This document shows positions 1,601-10,617 of a DNA stretch of 10,617 nucleotides, in pieces. The position numbers and the translations under genes were made by a program. The stretch covers positions 1 through 10,617 of the forward strand of contig JAIRTK010000347.1 of the NCBI GenBank assembly GCA_031254955.1, in the 5' to 3' direction. A model generated the notes under the pieces. That model saw nothing but the letters and a program-made list of their open reading frames with translations. It ran no database searches and was not told the DNA's origin. How positions within the stretch are numbered: position 1 is the stretch's first letter; the number at the start of each line of letters is the position of its first letter. This DNA comes from Opitutaceae bacterium (GTDB taxonomy: Bacteria; Verrucomicrobiota; Verrucomicrobiia; Opitutales; Opitutaceae).

Positions 1601-3772
1601 TTATTCGCCGTCCGCCGTGATTTCAAACACCCCGCTTCTATACGCGCCTTTGACGGGGAAGTCGATGCCGGCCTCCATCAGGCGCCTGCCCGTGAAGCTC
1701 CCCTTCATCTCCTTGATCCGGTAGGTGGCGTCGGGCCGCAGGCCGCGCAGCCGCACCAGGGGGCTGCGCCGCGTGCCGGGCACGGTGTTGCCGGGATACT
1801 CGGCCAGATTATATACAAAGACCACGGCTTTCCTCCCGTCCGCGTCTGTATATTGGAGGACGCTCCGGTTTTCATCATGCGGGGAAACCAGCCGGCTGAC
1901 GCCGCCTTTCTGCACGGTTTCGCGGATTCTCTTGTAGTGCGCAATCTTTCCCCGCGCCAGCTTTCGCTGGCTGTCGTTCCATCCGGAGATGTCGCAGCCC
2001 ACGCCCAGAATCCCCGCCATGCACACGTCGAATTTATACTCCAGGGACAGGCTCCGGCGGTGCCAGTCTTTTTCGGCGACCCATGTGCTCATGGTGCCGG
2101 CGGGGAACAGGGCCAGATAGGAATCGTGGATGAAAATCCGGTCAACGGGGTCGGAGATGTCGCTCGGCCAGTTGCAGTCAAAACGGGCCATCATGCCCAG
2201 GTCCAGGCGTCCGCCGCCGCTGGAGCAGTTTTCAAACCAGACTTCGGGAAACTCGGCGCGCAGGGTTTCCACCAGGCGGTAGAGGTTCTCCACATACCGG
2301 ATGCGCACGGCCCGCTGCTCGCCGGCGGGGGCGGAGGGGAAGCCCGCGTCGCTCAGCGCCTTGTTCGCGTCCCATTTGATAAACTTGATATTGTTTTCCG
2401 CCAGCAGGTCGCGGAGGCTTTTATATAAATACCGCGCCACGTCCTCGCGGGCGAGGTTGAGCATGAGCTGGGGGCGTCTTCCGTGGTGGCGTCCGCGGTT
2501 GGGGAAATGCAGCACCCAGTCGGGATGCGCGCGGTAGAGGTCGCTGTCGGGATTGACCATTTCCGGCTCGACCCAGAGGCCGAAATCCAGGCCCAGCGCG
2601 TTGATTTTTTTTATCATGGGCGCCAGCCCGTCGGGAAACTTGCCCCGGTCCACGGTCCAGTCGCCCAGTCCCGCGCCGCCGTCTTTGCGGCCTTTGAACC
2701 AGCCGTCGTCGATCACAAACAGCTCCACGCCCAGCTCCGCGGCGATCTTGGCGAGGGCGAGTTGCTGCGCCTCGTTGACATCGAAGGTCGTGGCATACCA
2801 GCTATTATACAAAACCGGGCGCAGGCGGTCGCGCAGCGGGGCGGGCAGGATTTTTTCCCTTGCATATGCGACCAGCGCGGTGGTGACGCCGGCGGAGCCT
2901 TGCTCCGTGTAGCCAAAAATCATGCGCGGCGTGGTGAATTTCCGTCCGGGCTGGAGGTGTATTTCCTGGTCCCAAAAGTTGATGCCGCCCGCGATTTGCA
3001 CCGTCCCCGAAAAGGCTTTTTGAAAATCGACCCGCCAGTTGCCGCTGTGGCACACGGTTCCAAACCACGCCTTCCCGGCGGTCGCCCCGGTTTCCCCTTT
3101 GGGGCGCACCAGAAACGTCGATGCGCCGTAGGATTTGAAATCCCGGACCTGCAGGGTCTTCACTCCCTGCGTAAGCTCGGTGGTCTGCGGCACAAGTTCG
3201 TGCCCCCACGCGCCCGAGTAATGGGTCAGTTCATAAAGGTCTTTCGGCAGGAACACCGAGCCGGACAGGAGGTTTTCCACGCGGATCACGCCTTCCGCGC
3301 CGGCGTGGGCCACCTCCACCCATTTCTCGATCATGTCATATTCGGGCAGCGCGCGGATGAAGGAGGTGACTTCCAGCGGATAATAGTTGTCGCGCTGGAT
3401 GATTTTCAGCGTCTGGCAGCCGTCGATTTCCAGCAGTTCATGCGTTTTATATTCCAGTTCGATGTCGCGCACGCCGTCCGGGAAAACCGCCTCCAGCACG
3501 GGCATGGCCGACACCGTGCCGCCGCGCACGGGAAGCTCGTGGCCCGGCGGCCTGGCTTGGCCGGCCGGTTGCGACGGGTTTCCGAAATGCAGGGCGTTGA
3601 CTTCGCCTTTGGGGGACACGGCCAGATGATAAACCGCCGAGCGGGTGCGGATGGCCCAGCTTTTGCCGTCCTGGCCGGCAATGATGGCGTTTTCACGCGC
3701 GGGGCTGGAGGCCGCCGGCAGCCAGAGGCAGGAGCAGGCAAGCAAATAGGAAAGGAAGCGTTTTTTTGTCAT
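1601..3772 (-). CDS. Secreted GH36 alpha-galactosidase
   Basis: Hydrolyses terminal alpha-galactosides such as alpha-1,6-galactosyl side chains or raffinose-type sugars. The predicted protein has 723 residues, normal for bacterial GH36. Residues 1-25 form a Sec-type signal (MTKKR followed by a hydrophobic stretch and PAASSPA). Residues 30-300 are the N-terminal beta-supersandwich with the family string INFWDQE. From about 318 the (beta/alpha)8 barrel begins with YNSWYATTFDVNE, then VIDDGWF (353-359) and GLWVEPEMVNPDSDL. KWDAN carries the nucleophile D468; NCSSGGGRLDLGM follows; WPSDISDPVDR carries the acid/base D538. A C-terminal beta domain ends the protein. The ATG at 3772 is chosen because it opens the signal peptide. 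The frame stays open a further 182 codons upstream, but only through repeat DNA. No Shine-Dalgarno sequence is visible. The neighbouring sulfatase and rhamnosidase suggest that the galactose comes from a complex polysaccharide. Confidence 0.95.
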   Translation of the reverse strand: MTKKRFLSYLLACSCLWLPAASSPARENAIIAGQDGKSWAIRTRSAVYHLAVSPKGEVNALHFGNPSQPAGQARPPGHELPVRGGTVSAMPVLEAVFPDGVRDIELEYKTHELLEIDGCQTLKIIQRDNYYPLEVTSFIRALPEYDMIEKWVEVAHAGAEGVIRVENLLSGSVFLPKDLYELTHYSGAWGHELVPQTTELTQGVKTLQVRDFKSYGASTFLVRPKGETGATAGKAWFGTVCHSGNWRVDFQKAFSGTVQIAGGINFWDQEIHLQPGRKFTTPRMIFGYTEQGSAGVTTALVAYAREKILPAPLRDRLRPVLYNSWYATTFDVNEAQQLALAKIAAELGVELFVIDDGWFKGRKDGGAGLGDWTVDRGKFPDGLAPMIKKINALGLDFGLWVEPEMVNPDSDLYRAHPDWVLHFPNRGRHHGRRPQLMLNLAREDVARYLYKSLRDLLAENNIKFIKWDANKALSDAGFPSAPAGEQRAVRIRYVENLYRLVETLRAEFPEVWFENCSSGGGRLDLGMMARFDCNWPSDISDPVDRIFIHDSYLALFPAGTMSTWVAEKDWHRRSLSLEYKFDVCMAGILGVGCDISGWNDSQRKLARGKIAHYKRIRETVQKGGVSRLVSPHDENRSVLQYTDADGRKAVVFVYNLAEYPGNTVPGTRRSPLVRLRGLRPDATYRIKEMKGSFTGRRLMEAGIDFPVKGAYRSGVFEITADGE

Positions 3773-3838
3773 GCTGGGTGTGGCTATGTAATGGGTGTGT
3801 TTGGGAGGGCGGAGGGTGGGGAGGGCGTGGAGAGGGGG

Positions 3839-3971
3839 AGTGGCGAGTAGCGGGTGGTGAGTGGCGGGTAGTGAGTAGTGAGCGGTGAGTGGTGAGCGGT
3901 GGGTGGTGAGTGGTGGGTGGCGGGTGGCGGGTGGCGGGTGGTGAGTGGTGAGCGGTGAGCGGTGGGTGGTG
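3839..3971. repeat. Heptamer array RGYRGYG, 19 units, upstream of GH36
   Basis: Nineteen consecutive heptamers in unbroken phase all match RGYRGYG on the plus strand. Variants include AGTGGCG, AGTAGTG, AGCGGTG, GGTGGTG and three identical GGTGGCG in a row (3916-3936). Substitutions occur almost only as A/G and T/C transitions at fixed positions, with no indels. Imperfect units continue on both sides (3790-3838 and 3972-4000). The array ends 66 bp before the GH36 start and so lies in its probable leader or promoter region. Heptanucleotide short tandem repeats are known from cyanobacteria; I infer no function here. Confidence 0.9.
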
Positions 3972-4028
3972 GGTGTGATGAGTGGGGTGAGTGGGGGGTT
4001 AATAACTGATGTTACGCGCGGCCTTGGT

Positions 4029-4171
4029 CGTAGCGCAGACTTCCAAGTCTGCTTCAGGCTACGCACGTGTTGCGTGCTCGGCAGGTTGTCAGGCTTCTCG
4101 CTTCGCTCGGAATCCAATCTGCTGACGGGCCGATGGGCCGCTCTGAAGCAGGCTTGGAAGCCTGCGCTACG
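4029..4171. repeat. REPIN-like element: two inverted REP palindromes
   Basis: A 28-bp arm at 4029-4056 (CGTAGCGCAGACTTCC and onward) recurs as its reverse complement at 4144-4171 with two mismatches. Each arm contains its own palindrome (GCAGACTT-CC-AAGTCTGC and GCAGGCTT-GG-AAGCCTGC); the two changes are compensatory, so each palindrome is kept intact. The 87-bp spacer holds smaller inverted repeats (ACGCA/TGCGT, GGCC/GGCC). The layout is that of a REPIN, a non-autonomous element mobilised by RAYT transposases. No transposase is in the window. It lies 70 bp past the NHL-protein stop and could also act as a transcript end or stabiliser. A related palindrome occurs at 7819-7842. Together with the heptamer array it accounts for most of the 3773-4241 gap. 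Confidence 0.8.
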
Positions 4172-4197
4172 ACAGAGGAAGCCTGCGCTGCGACAGA
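4156..4197. repeat. 21-bp tandem duplication at the REPIN edge
   Basis: The right end of the REP arm plus its flank (GGAAGCCTGCGCTACGACAGA, 4156-4176) is directly repeated at 4177-4197 with one A-to-G change. It gives a second half-palindrome and suggests slippage or partial re-insertion at the element border. Confidence 0.8.
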
Positions 4198-7200: not shown

Positions 7201-7655
7201 GCGACATCGGCCTCGGGATAGACGCCGAGGACGGGCGGGGTGTCGAGAACGTTCGCGGGCTGCCAGGTGGCGAGGTTGTCATCGGACCAGATGACGCGGC
7301 GGGCGTTGTCGGGGTTGCCGGCGTATGCGGAGTGGTTCAGGATGTGACGGATGAGCACCACGGTGCGCCCGTCGGGCAGGCGGGTGGCGACGGGCCAGCC
7401 CATGTGGCGGTAGCCGGGGCTGGGCGGCGCCTCAAACACAAGCTGGAGATCGAGCGTGCCGGCGTCGATAAGCGCCTGCATGCGGGTTTGCTGCTCGGAG
7501 CTGAAATCGAAGCTGTTAAAAGCAGCGTCGGTCAAGTCCACCGGCGCGGCGGACATCGCGCCGGCAAGGGCGGCGAGGCCCGCGGTCAGTATCAATGCCC
7601 GGGCTTTCGTGGCGAGCGCCGGGAGGCTCGTTTTGGTATTGGTTCTGGATTTCAT
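4242..7655 (-). CDS. Secreted Asp-box/IPT/Ig/NHL multidomain protein with C-terminal sorting tail
   Basis: Predicted surface or exported protein of 1137 residues. Residues 1-36 are a signal peptide (hydrophobic 20-33, AMSA-AP cleavage site). Residues 75-500 form a sialidase-like beta-propeller with Asp-boxes SDDNLATW (124-131), SDDRGVTW (211-218) and SVDAGETW (268-275). I do not see the full arginine triad and Tyr/Glu pair of GH33, so sialidase activity is not claimed. Two IPT/TIG domains (about 510-587 and 590-672) and an Ig-like domain (about 682-772) follow. Six NHL repeats (about 777-1078) each carry a variant of LYVADTGN and should form a second propeller. The tail has an Asn-8 run (1100-1107), GGGGG, then APGW, a short hydrophobic segment and RKLSSRRR. 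This resembles GlyGly-CTERM or MYXO-CTERM sorting signals. The ATG at 7655 opens the signal peptide, 37 bp after the rhamnosidase stop. Glycan binding or hydrolysis is a guess from context. Confidence 0.88.
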   Translation of the reverse strand: MKSRTNTKTSLPALATKARALILTAGLAALAGAMSAAPVDLTDAAFNSFDFSSEQQTRMQALIDAGTLDLQLVFEAPPSPGYRHMGWPVATRLPDGRTVVLIRHILNHSAYAGNPDNARRVIWSDDNLATWQPANVLDTPPVLGVYPEADVAGAGSKWDYAGMHALSWAYTGTTVAESIAGAATGTARLVAVTGKINDTLPSEKNFRIYLSDDRGVTWREQPGALADMPLNAVHSGPNMIRHPEFGLVVPFGQQTGSAVDGENFLARSVDAGETWEIKTWRNATNSRNVEPALATWGPGHMVIIGRDYTPAHGYDSATGKFYYTQNVYKHTPGAPFSAVTFTTARTTIAGNGATPVARGKSAREAHDTPEVIHNPVTGRIEVIQSSRWGNGAENPLPDDPTDLSQCNNSLNLWSIDPVDLLAGGTTWRFDGNLVERRGISCGGNSSVGTDDIYNKDGFHPGGSIVDEAAGQQHIFIYVGYYYQYANAYRLSRPLDTYAFRAACGLPPLPAPAVTGATVTGSTVTITGINFTALKEILVAGQPAEFAPDYSITEIKATLPAGVTAVNPAELVVRTDHGLSRGLSDPAALPPSVSAIDYQTIYPGNPVTITGVKLADVATVLFGDMAIAAADFVSRTDTEITVRVPAGITTGAITLKTAAGAIVPLPMSGGYTVAEKPSALAPLVATQPVVIGPHSLDLIASATGVPAPSFKWQYRRDGGSGDWADITGSADYQGAATAHLSIVNTAGKNGWQYRFVAMNHTEDVYSDTVTLQLLAETLLSPSGITATAGMTDPDLYIADTQAHVIRKITQADGRAVVFAGQPGVSGHADGAASAALFNAPRGVAVTAAGALAVADTGNNAIRLVTADGAVSTLSTAFNQPRALAAHDTNGDLYVADTGNHLVKKITSAGAVSIIAGAAGPGFANGIGPAAQFNTPSGIAVDLAGNLYIADTGNNAIRYIDMTTGSVSTFAGRPLVAPGHNDGAKTTAATFNAPEGVTVDAAGWVFVADTGNSHIRTIRSGTVFHTTLYPEGFSNYAGLKDGRDGTPGEVLFDHPSSIVLAEDGHLYVADTGNAVIRRIDNGNDVTTLPIEALTGNPDSPGNNNNNNNNSGGGGGAPGWCFAAALAALLASRKLSSRRR
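4318..4359. repeat. GCC/GTT/ATT microsatellite coding for Gly and Asn runs
   Basis: Successive triplet runs (CCG/GCC about five times, GTT about four times, ATT three to four times on the plus strand) encode the Gly-5 and Asn-8 tracts just before the C-terminal hydrophobic segment of the NHL protein. All runs are in frame, so copy changes would alter linker length without breaking the frame. Confidence 0.85.
4443..5279 (-). repeat. Six NHL-repeat coding units with near-identical DNA cores
   Basis: A core close to GTTGCCGGTGTCGGCCAC on the plus strand, often followed by GTAGAGGT, recurs at 4443, 4626, 4800, 4962, 5085 and, diverged, 5258. Each copy encodes the (L/V)Y(V/I)ADTGN step of an NHL repeat. 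Spacing is about 120-185 bp. Nucleotide identity is higher than the protein motif alone needs, which fits recent duplication or gene conversion among blades. Confidence 0.75.
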
Positions 7656-7683
7656 GGGAAATGGATGTTTGGCGGATGGGAAC

Positions 7684-7710
7684 CTCTAAAAATCAGTTTT
7701 TAACCGCGAA
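7684..7710 (-). promoter_or_regulatory. Shared upstream element before the NHL-protein start (candidate)
   Basis: TTTTTAACCGCGAA (7697-7710) with its A-rich flank matches 1354-1380 upstream of the sulfatase. TTCGCG begins 55 bp before the ATG on the coding strand. The element overlaps the stop codon of the upstream rhamnosidase (7693-7695) and one terminal repeat of the 90-bp element at 7699-7788, so it may bring its own promoter to the downstream gene. No clear -35/-10 pair is seen. Confidence 0.4.
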
Positions 7711-10617
7711 AGGACGCGAAATATCAAACCGAAGGGATTCGGATAATTTATTTAAAAATAAATGCTTGCTGGAAATTTCGCGGTTAAAGCCTGCTCTGGG
7801 CGGGACCTTCGGCCCAAGGCAGGTTTGGAAACCTGCGCTACGAAAGGCCGCGTGCTTCAGGAACTCCACTTTCACCTCTCCCATCAATCCGGCGTCAGGC
7901 GGGACGGATTTCTTATCAAAATAATTCCATGTGGAGAACGCCTGCCGCTTGGTCGGGCGCGGCCTGCCTTCGAGCAGCCAGTCGGGAAACCGGCGCAGGG
8001 GGCGCCCCTCGTCACGGCTGCCCGCGCCCCACTCGCAATCATCGGGATGCTCATTGTCGCCGATCAGGCGGTTCGCCCATGTATTGGTCACTTCGATGCG
8101 AAGCTCGTTCTCGCCGGGTTTTATAAAACCGGTAACCTCCACCTCGAACGGCGCGTGCCAGAGCGTGGCGACGAACCTGCCGTTGACCGAGACGGAAGCC
8201 AGCTCCCGGACGGCCCCGAGATTGAGGATGACGGACAAATCATCGGCGGCGGCGGTTTCGGGCAGGCGAAATGTATTTGTATATACAGCGGTTCCTGAAA
8301 AATATTTTATACGCTCGTCGTCCGAGCGCGTCCACGATTCGAGTTTGTCAAACTTGGTGGAGAACGGCGCTCCGACGGGCGGGCGGAACTCCACGCGCCA
8401 CGCCCCGGCGGGCGCCACGGCGGCGGGCGCGGCGGCGATGACGGCGCGCAGTGTTTTCCCCGAGGCCGTTTGCAATTCCACCCCGCCGGCGGCGGCGGAC
8501 GCGACCGCCCAGCCGTCCGCTTTTCTTTCCACCATAAAATCATCCGGGGAGAGCGGCGAGCGGACGGCGGCGGCAAAATCGTTTTGTGCGATTGGTTTTT
8601 CAAATACAATAAACAGGGCTTGATGGGGTTTCAGGGACAGGGACACGTCCGCGCCGGCGGCGGTCGGGCGCCAGAGGGCGGCGGGGCGCACCACTCCGGT
8701 TTCCGGGTCCCAGATTTCAGGGGTTTTGTTTTTTGCCCTCAGCGCAACATTCAGGTGTTTGGATTCCGCCCCGAGGTTGGAAAAATAAAAAATATCCACT
8801 TCGCCCGACCGCCGGTGCAACCAGCAGAGGGAATCGTCGCGGTCACGCCCTCCGTGAACTTCCACGCTCGCCGGAACATTCAACCGGCGCAGCGCCTCAT
8901 CGACCGAACCGCCCCACAGCACCCTGCCTTTCTTGTATGAATTTTCTCCCGTCTCCGCGAGAGGAGCGTTTCCCCAGATGCTGTCGGCCAGCTCCTTGAA
9001 TTTCTTTTCATCGGCCGCGAAATCCAGGCTCGGCGCGGGCGCCGGGGGTTTTGGGCCGAACACAACCGCGCCGCCGGCCACGAGCCTCTCAATTTTTTCG
9101 AGCGCCTCCAGCGACAATGGCGCCCCGCCCTTCCGGGGGATGGCGAGCAAAGGATAGGTCCGCCCGGTGGGACCGGTCAGCCTGCCGTCTTTTATATTAA
9201 CATGGTTGAGCAGGGATTTTTCCGAAATCACGTCGCCGCCCGGCATATAAACATCCAGCGTGATAAAATCGGACACCTTCTCGCCCTGTCGCATCAGATA
9301 TTGCGAGCGGGCCAGATAGGCGAGCCAGGCCTTGCCCGGCTCATGCCAGGTCTGGTTGCGCCCGAAATGGGATCCCCACGGCCCCATGCTCATGCCCGGT
9401 TTTATAGAATCGGGAAACGGCTGGTGCACCCAGTGGTGCAGAATCATGCGGTTGACGCCCAGCGAAAAGGCGAGGTCGCCGCTGGGCTTGAGCCGCGCGG
9501 GCGTCTCGCTCCAGCGGCTGTGCTCGCCCCGGCCCGAAAACGCCTCGGCGCTTAATAGTGTTTTTCCGAAAAACGGGATGGCCGCGCCGACCCGCCAGAT
9601 GTCGAGTTCGTCCGCGCGACGGTGAAACCAGAATTCGGTGGCGGGCCGGTCGGGCACGGGCGCGGCGTCGAAAGTGGCAAACGGCCTCGCCACGTTGCCC
9701 GGCCCGGTGGCGTAAGGCTCGCTTTGCATTTCCAGCCCCGCCTCGCGGAGCATTTTTTGGGGCAGCCGGAAACTGTATTCGAGAAACAGGTCCGCGATGA
9801 CCGCCTTCAAATCGCGCTTGAACCCCTCCGCGGCCTCCTTGCTTTTAATAACGCGCCCCGCGAGGACGGGCAGCCACGGGATGAGGTCGTAGCCCTTTCG
9901 CGCTTGAAATTCCTCCCGCATGAGCGGCGTCCAGTCCTGCCCGCCCGCCTCGTAACTGTCGAAATGAATGACTTTGAGAGAGCGGCCAATAGTGTCGCCG
10001 AGGTGTTTTTGCAGCGGTTCCAGCACGCTCCGCATGTGGAGGGACATCGCGGCGGCGCTCATCTTGTCGGCCTCCAGCGCGTCGGTGTTTTCGGGCGCGG
10101 CGTTGGGCTTCGAGCCGGTCGGGGTGTGGCCGAAGCGGTAGATGGTGTATCTTCCCCTCGGTATGTCGCAGACCAGCCTTCCGTCGGGCCGCATTTTTCC
10201 GGTGATGTTTATAATGGCGCCGGGCGCGGGTTCGCCGTCGGGCACGAGCAGCACGGCGATATCCTTGTAATGATTCATCTTGGCGGCGGGCTGGTCGAGA
10301 AAGCGGTCATACGGACGCGGGCCGGCGGCCCGCGCCTCCGACCAGACGACGCGCTGCATGGCGTTTTCCGGTTTTATCCAGGGGCCGCCGCTGACCGACC
10401 AGCCGATGCAATTATGCAGGCCCAGCTCCAGCCCGAGCCGCTGGGCCTCGACGGCGGCATGGCGCAGCAGGGAGAGCCAGTTGTCATTATAATATTCGAC
10501 GCCGGGAGAATAGACGTTGGCGACAGGCGCGAAGCGGCTCGTCCCCGCCGAGGTGATCTGGAAGACAATCGCGCCGCCCACGCCGGCGTCTTTCATGGAT
10601 TCGAGGTCCTTGGTGAT
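7693..10617 (-). CDS. GH106-type alpha-L-rhamnosidase, 5' end missing
   Basis: Inverting-type alpha-L-rhamnosidase family that removes terminal rhamnose from pectin (rhamnogalacturonans) or other rhamnosylated glycans. The frame is open to the window edge and already in conserved sequence (ITKDLESMKDAGVGGAIVFQ), so the true start and signal peptide lie outside; the Met at 10596 is internal. Numbered from that Met: HNCIGWSVSGGPWI (61-74); IHFDSYEAGGQDW (210-222) followed by REEFQARKGYDL; SAEAFSGRG (349-357); then GVNRMILHHWVHQPF, KPGMSMGPWGSHF and QTW (about 380-417) are the GH106 signature blocks. E216 and E351 are the likely catalytic acids, judged by motif and spacing. A C-terminal beta-sandwich (about 740-840, SVNGRFVATLWHAPFEVEVT) follows. 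The family-like sequence ends near EVKVEFLK (914). The remaining 53 residues come from dispersed repeats, an unusual C-terminal extension. Confidence 0.93.
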   Translation of the reverse strand: MTKDLESMKDAGVGGAIVFQITSAGTSRFAPVANVYSPGVEYYNDNWLSLLRHAAVEAQRLGLELGLHNCIGWSVSGGPWIKPENAMQRVVWSEARAAGPRPYDRFLDQPAAKMNHYKDIAVLLVPDGEPAPGAIINITGKMRPDGRLVCDIPRGRYTIYRFGHTPTGSKPNAAPENTDALEADKMSAAAMSLHMRSVLEPLQKHLGDTIGRSLKVIHFDSYEAGGQDWTPLMREEFQARKGYDLIPWLPVLAGRVIKSKEAAEGFKRDLKAVIADLFLEYSFRLPQKMLREAGLEMQSEPYATGPGNVARPFATFDAAPVPDRPATEFWFHRRADELDIWRVGAAIPFFGKTLLSAEAFSGRGEHSRWSETPARLKPSGDLAFSLGVNRMILHHWVHQPFPDSIKPGMSMGPWGSHFGRNQTWHEPGKAWLAYLARSQYLMRQGEKVSDFITLDVYMPGGDVISEKSLLNHVNIKDGRLTGPTGRTYPLLAIPRKGGAPLSLEALEKIERLVAGGAVVFGPKPPAPAPSLDFAADEKKFKELADSIWGNAPLAETGENSYKKGRVLWGGSVDEALRRLNVPASVEVHGGRDRDDSLCWLHRRSGEVDIFYFSNLGAESKHLNVALRAKNKTPEIWDPETGVVRPAALWRPTAAGADVSLSLKPHQALFIVFEKPIAQNDFAAAVRSPLSPDDFMVERKADGWAVASAAAGGVELQTASGKTLRAVIAAAPAAVAPAGAWRVEFRPPVGAPFSTKFDKLESWTRSDDERIKYFSGTAVYTNTFRLPETAAADDLSVILNLGAVRELASVSVNGRFVATLWHAPFEVEVTGFIKPGENELRIEVTNTWANRLIGDNEHPDDCEWGAGSRDEGRPLRRFPDWLLEGRPRPTKRQAFSTWNYFDKKSVPPDAGLMGEVKVEFLKHAAFRSAGFQTCLGPKVPPRAGFNREISSKHLFLNKLSESLRFDISRPFAVKN
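7699..7788. mobile_element. 90-bp MITE-like element with 13-bp terminal inverted repeats
   Basis: TTTAACCGCGAAA at 7699-7711 is exactly inverted as TTTCGCGGTTAAA at 7776-7788. The 64 bp between are AT-rich, unlike the flanks, and hold a short hairpin CCGAA-GGGA-TTCGG (7729-7742) and an AT palindrome ATTTATTT-AA-AAATAAAT (7746-7763). The element is in the rhamnosidase reading frame, ending 3 bp short of its stop codon. I see no clear target-site duplication. It could be a small non-autonomous element or a composite of short repeats. Confidence 0.6.
7790..7842. repeat. REP-type double palindrome inside the rhamnosidase 3' end
   Basis: The right half, GCAGGTTTGGAAACCTGC (7819-7836) followed by GCTACG, has the same form as the REP arms at 4029-4056 and 4144-4171, again with compensatory changes that keep the palindrome. 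The left half is a second hairpin: CCTGCTCTGGGC (7790-7801) pairs with GCCCAAGGCAGG (7812-7823), two mismatches in 12, with a 10-nt loop. The element reads in frame as RSAGFQTCLGPKVPPRAG. It directly abuts the 90-bp inverted-repeat element. Confidence 0.75.

Follow-up and report, generated by a model that had tools for sequence, protein, structure and literature searches.

The window, by which we mean the whole stretch of 10,617 nucleotides analysed here, is the complete contig C34 of a draft MAG (G000; 3.58 Mb in 574 contigs, 68.67% complete), and was compared with two further genomes of the same genus, the sister MAG G001 and that of T. mucosus (G002; Termitidicoccus mucosus in the protein database). 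The first gene, at 1-1326, is sulfatase-like by eye, and a 9-base tandem repeat (CGGAATGGA, about eight copies, 1418-1488) lies between it and a GH36 gene. An array of about 22 tandem copies of a 7-base, GTGGTGA-like unit (3827-3985) immediately precedes the probable start of GH36, and further upstream of the same gene, at 4022-4178, sits a pair of oppositely oriented REPs with 36-nt arms that are 89% complementary and 85 nt apart. The REP arm at this site does translate to RSAGFQACF, as the initial annotation had proposed in drawing a parallel with the end of the GH106 gene; the peptide is probably not within a protein, given that the arm lies upstream of both the Met of a signal-peptide-like start recognized by eye (MTKKRFLSYLLACSCLWLPAASSPA, at 3772) and the gene start given by the coding model (3991). 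On the minus strand, a GH106 gene with a frame running from 10617 to 7693, which is 5'-truncated by the contig end and whose product is missing its N-terminus, is followed by a short leader (7656-7692) and by a gene encoding a BNR/NHL protein (ATG at 7655).

The conserved part of the GH106 product, predicted to be an alpha-L-rhamnosidase-like protein on the strength of its match to PF17132 (469.2 bits; Pfam cut-off, 29), spans 7843-10617 and ends in EVKVEFLKHAAF. The protein shares 85% identity with a copy from T. mucosus, and the dN/dS of 0.26 measured against that copy is indicative of purifying selection on the gene body. Homology shared with relatives runs to the tetrapeptide HAAF (7854-7843), whose counterparts in other proteins read HAAFQ*, HASFR*, KAAFQSQF* and HAAFSRPE*, and thus extends four residues beyond EVKVEFLK (7878-7855), where the initial annotation had placed its end. 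Since homology includes HAAF, the added tail comprises 49 codons (RSAGFQTCLGPKVPPRAGFNREISSKHLFLNKLSESLRFDISRPFAVKN; 7842-7696, minus strand) and not the roughly 52 counted earlier. The open frame itself, the REP, the 90-bp element and the stop at 7693 all lie where they had first been described.

From HAAF the frame passes into a GTAG-type REP (7788-7843, minus strand) made up of a core, GTAGCGCAGGTTTCCAAACCTGC, at 7841-7819 and a second G+C-rich part that reaches up to the next repeat, then through a 90-bp inverted-repeat element (7699-7788), and finally meets a TGA (7695-7693). In its present orientation the REP stops one of the three frames by its own GTAG, whose TAG sits out of frame two bases past the Phe codon of HAAF; its palindrome, GCAGGTTTCCAAACCTGC, has a 7 bp stem that is present in the predicted folds. 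The TGA occupies the element's outer edge, which is poorly conserved between copies (the commonest bases, ttcag, reach 30-50% each), and the best-matching copies start within or past the TCA, so that either the repeat or host DNA may have supplied the stop. When the tail was shuffled at constant base composition, 440 of 5000 shuffles contained a stop-free run of 49 codons, so such a run is unremarkable in itself, the tail being no longer than chance allows. In a weak AlphaFold2 model (15 sequences, mean pLDDT 59.5) the tail is predicted with the lowest values, pLDDT 26-29. A search with residues 918-974, covering proteins of similar length that have 5-residue words in common, returned the window protein alone among seven candidates; it is of narrow reach and left the G001 protein described below unlisted, and is therefore no proof that the tail is absent elsewhere. 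A ribosomal -1 frameshift onto the REP TAG was also considered, in view of the hairpin that follows the Phe codon, and rejected: by eye, GCGGCCTTTCGTAG contains no canonical slippery heptamer.

REP cores, sought with a pattern allowing up to two mismatches, number 215 in G000 and 376 in G001 vs 2 in the 96% complete genome of T. mucosus, a member of the same genus; the reversed control pattern gave none. The window core begins with GTAG, as does the consensus derived from 127 of the 133 copies, a conservation that is in part a consequence of the search, whose pattern contained GTAG (up to two mismatches); in G001 most of the listed one-mismatch copies read GTAC, not GTAG. Matches to Y1_Tnp (Y1 transposase), sought as candidates for a RAYT transposase associated with the REPs, occur above the cut-off in all three genomes. 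Four REP-like cores lie in the stretch around one G001 match (L218); among the five of six G000 matches covered (all but that on C242), four stretches hold no REP core and one, on C174 (L216), holds a single core. Copies of the arms of the 90-bp element, TTTAACCGCGAAA (7699-7711) and TTTCGCGGTTAAA (7776-7788), found with at most three mismatches, number 41 in G000, 45 in G001 and 6 in G002, and none with the reversed control. Two G000 contigs (C179 and C474) match most of the element at 79%, near full-length copies being few. Its 13-bp terminal inverted repeats, its dispersed copies and the lack of a transposase inside the 90 bp are suggestive of a MITE-like element. Both the REP and the element belong to true repeat families and are not chance resemblances.

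Aligning GH106 homologues, as the initial annotation had suggested, places the end of most of them just past HAAF. Fifteen of the best 16 relatives were aligned, the window protein included and P0012 ('partial') omitted, and 13 of the 15 stop one to five residues past the Phe of HAAF; the window protein and its syntenic orthologue in G001 (P0003) run further. The C-terminal motif was found in 62 of the best 120 relatives (out of 3341 found), and 55 of the 62 end no more than 18 residues from it. Among the remaining seven, one ends at 26 residues and six farther out: the window protein, P0003 and four proteins with further domains in precomputed Pfam lists. A contig scan (80 of 162 loci retained) yielded the C-termini of four loci, one of them that of the G001 protein (L136) and the others lying 11 (L138), four (L137) and one (L139) residues past the Phe. 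No repeat-free homologue sharing the last 50 residues was seen among the 15 aligned proteins or the 62 with the motif.

Both GH106 copies of T. mucosus have the unextended end. The order of the GH106 gene and the following BNR/NHL gene is the same in the window, on contig C192 of G001 and at locus L037 of T. mucosus; at the last, 76 nt separate the Phe codon from the next ATG, vs 187 in the window, and the junction contains no REP core and no element arm among the listed genome matches. A comparison of the window leader behind the insert with the leader of T. mucosus gave no significant alignment (89 of 500 shuffles as good), and the alignment of the window insert region itself was equalled by 29 of 500 shuffles; judged from these comparisons, the insertion has not left a clean footprint in the window.

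Contig C192 of G001 carries the GH106 gene, the BNR/NHL gene and a GH36-like start, the last two recognized by eye. In this copy GCGGCCTTT is followed by CGTGACGCGGGTTTTCAACC, which resembles CGTAGCGCAGGTTTCCAAACC of the window. The first 30 nt of the G001 tail align with those of the window tail as well as only 3 of 2000 shuffles, and with the bare REP core as well as only 2 of 2000; the later parts of the two tails give an alignment matched by 42 of 500 shuffles. The G001 tail opens with a decayed REP-like start, continues in a different dispersed repeat family that has many copies in G000, G001 and G002, and stops at a TAA soon after CCTGAAATCAT, a stretch that is also present in the leader of T. 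mucosus (3 of 500 shuffles as good). A TGA follows the Phe codon at the same out-of-frame offset as the REP TAG of the window. The two species thus both have tails formed from repeats at this one junction, and differ in what comes later in the tail. A shared old REP with separate later additions fits these data best; alternatively, independent insertions at a favoured spot in each species are possible. We also note that, in the middle of the G001 gene (P0003, L036), an unrelated in-frame stretch including AVLECGDLSPL replaces some 70 conserved residues (about 521-591 of the query). As this part of the protein is unlike its relatives, the G001 copy may be decaying.

The presence of the two repeats at other gene ends, which the initial annotation had proposed to survey, was assessed in 118 stretches of G000 (568 kb, the window included) with an in-house model of coding signal, which is not a gene finder and for which 98 of the 118 served as training data; the census covers 166 of the 215 REP cores and 35 of the 41 element arms. 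None of the 166 cores of this high-copy family falls within a coding segment, a test with a blind spot because the coding model may end a segment prematurely where it meets a REP; 143 of the cores have one or more genes whose 3' end points towards them. Of the 171 pairings of a core with a gene end, two have the stop past the start of the REP, by 149 bp in the window and by 4 bp at L060; eight further stops precede a REP by 30 bp or less. The same two cases emerged from an open-frame check of coding signal linked to a REP. L060, the sole pair in which the REP TAG serves as stop, is an arginine-rich, low-confidence frame that was judged by eye and not accepted as a genuine read-in. Among the 166 REP cores examined in G000, the window gene alone clearly reads into a REP, and it is also the only one of 32 element pairs in which the element is read through.

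The G001 census comprised 21 stretches (20 around listed cores, plus C192) with 54 REP cores, and its counts are not comparable with those of G000 because its looser pattern allowed any base after GTA and the stretches were few. No coding segment contains any of the 54 cores; the check for open frames singled out five of them, in three genes. One of these genes encodes a 2-oxoacid dehydrogenase E2 protein (PF00198, PF00364, PF02817; L251, G001:C314, 121-2424, minus strand), with a REP pair in frame in the linker before the catalytic domain; in the orthologues of G000, G002, G005 and G008 the linker at this place is different and lacks the pair. The second is ftsH, which on contig C588 (L256/L266) reads into a REP pair after a shortened stretch and on contig C203 (L271) has a normal stop; this read-in is a frameshift, a strain variant or an assembly error. 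The third (L249, G001:C290, 3006-4508, minus strand) encodes a protein that by eye looks secreted and whose C-terminal region is hydrophobic and rich in glycine, and the frame continues for about 50 codons before entering the REP. The E2 protein is a solid case, so REPs read in frame are indeed present in the genus; of the apparent cases, one or more reflect an artefact or a variant.

Taken together, these observations make it probable that the tail of the window protein is a product of read-through into repeats at the end of the GH106 gene. A GTAG-type REP would have inserted at the stop codon or taken its place, and an inverted-repeat element unrelated to the REP follows immediately. Once the native stop had been lost or shifted to another frame, translation would proceed through both repeats, add 49 residues and terminate at the next TGA; such read-through of both would be possible because the REP leaves two of its three frames open and the element one of three. 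The tail would then be a tolerated, unstructured by-product carried by an intact, selected enzyme, and it bears no sign of selection, its run length being within chance and its sequence not conserved. The proposal of the initial annotation that mobile repeats extended the protein thus stands insofar as dispersed repeats form a non-homologous tail where most aligned relatives and T. mucosus end; its further suggestion that insertion removed the original stop and that the repeats provided a new one could go either way. The stop may have been lost by the insertion directly or, given the out-of-frame TAG of the REP itself and the TGA at the same offset in G001, by a later one-base change.

In a special case of this explanation, overlapping with it and not exclusive of it, the REP TAG would first have served as the stop of the GH106 gene, and a later one-base deletion, possibly before the split of G000 and G001, would have shifted the frame. 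One more base at the junction would indeed give HAAF, a single further residue and a stop, which is the length of the relatives ending in HAAFQ* and HASFR*. The termini of GTAG REPs often provide a TAG stop according to PMC3733652, and the EnhC case described in PMC5896051 likewise hinges on an indel beside an element. On the other hand, the untrusted L060 frame is the only one among the 171 pairs of the G000 census to use a REP TAG as stop, and the same offset in two species is explicable by common descent of the insertion alone. We regard this sequence of events as possible and hold it tentatively.

A one-base sequencing or assembly indel at the junction, with the real protein ending at the REP TAG and bearing no tail, would be an alternative to read-through: the window comes from a draft MAG, and ftsH of G001, which gave a similar signal and yet proved to have a frameshifted end, illustrates such ends beside REPs in assemblies of this kind. 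However, the reading frame is shared by the G001 orthologue, which comes from a separate genome record, and there too an out-of-frame stop triplet is found at this offset; an error is in our opinion unlikely. A tail kept by selection, for example as a localisation or degradation signal or as an mRNA structure, appears very improbable. In its favour, both sister species carry an open tail, albeit one built from different repeats, and the fold of the stretch is better than that of shuffles (DNA z -2.81, 2 of 200 as good; RNA z -2.07, 5 of 200). Against it, the two tails past the first 30 nt align no clearly better than shuffles, the other 13 aligned proteins have no tail, open runs of this length are frequent in shuffles, and palindromes give such folds by construction.

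Our literature search returned nothing on the GH106 gene of the window, which is no proof of absence. The general process by which the tail probably arose has already been published (PMC3733652, PMC5896051), and the tail is a real but ordinary new instance of it. PMC3733652 (2013, 'GTAG- and CGTC-tagged palindromic DNA repeats in prokaryotes') describes stop codons provided by REPs, GTAG REPs that overlap or lie inside ORFs, and in-frame REPs, of which those of the GTAG type are most numerous in Opitutus terrae. The window REP resembles these GTAG-tagged repeats in its GTAG-ended palindrome, high copy number and location mostly outside genes and near 3' ends; unlike the REPs portrayed there, it has its TAG outside the frame that is read, and the tail runs on into a second, unrelated repeat. 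Another precedent is QMITE2, which according to PMC5896051 presumably gives the 33 C-terminal residues of EnhC in the Dugway strain of Coxiella burnetii, the stop lying immediately downstream, while in another strain an indel yields a stop before the element. There too a dispersed inverted-repeat element supplies a C-terminus, although the element family and the protein are different and the window combines a REP with an element. Rickettsia palindromic elements are likewise palindromic repeats read in the coding frame, as peptide inserts in unrelated proteins; PMC10969869 and PMC3733652 place them in frame in many genes, whereas in the window genome one of 166 examined REP cores is clearly in frame. 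Work cited in PMC12306157 found that REPs up to 15 nt from a stop stall ribosomes; in contrast to such REPs, the stop in the window begins 123 nt past the REP core.

The census count suggests that reading of a gene into a REP is rare in this one REP-rich genome, and ftsH of G001 and the frame upstream of GH36 caution that repeat-coded peptides in draft genomes may be frame artefacts. The locus offers a comparable example of mobile palindromes altering the end of a protein, in which an unextended relative (T. mucosus) and a second extended one (G001) can be set beside it. It is conceivable, if somewhat doubtful, that this gene end has been rebuilt repeatedly, a REP arriving before the split of the sister species, the stop being lost, and a different repeat family then being appended and read in frame in each lineage. 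If so, repeat turnover at gene ends would keep producing new C-termini, as exemplified by two largely unrelated tails on one enzyme.
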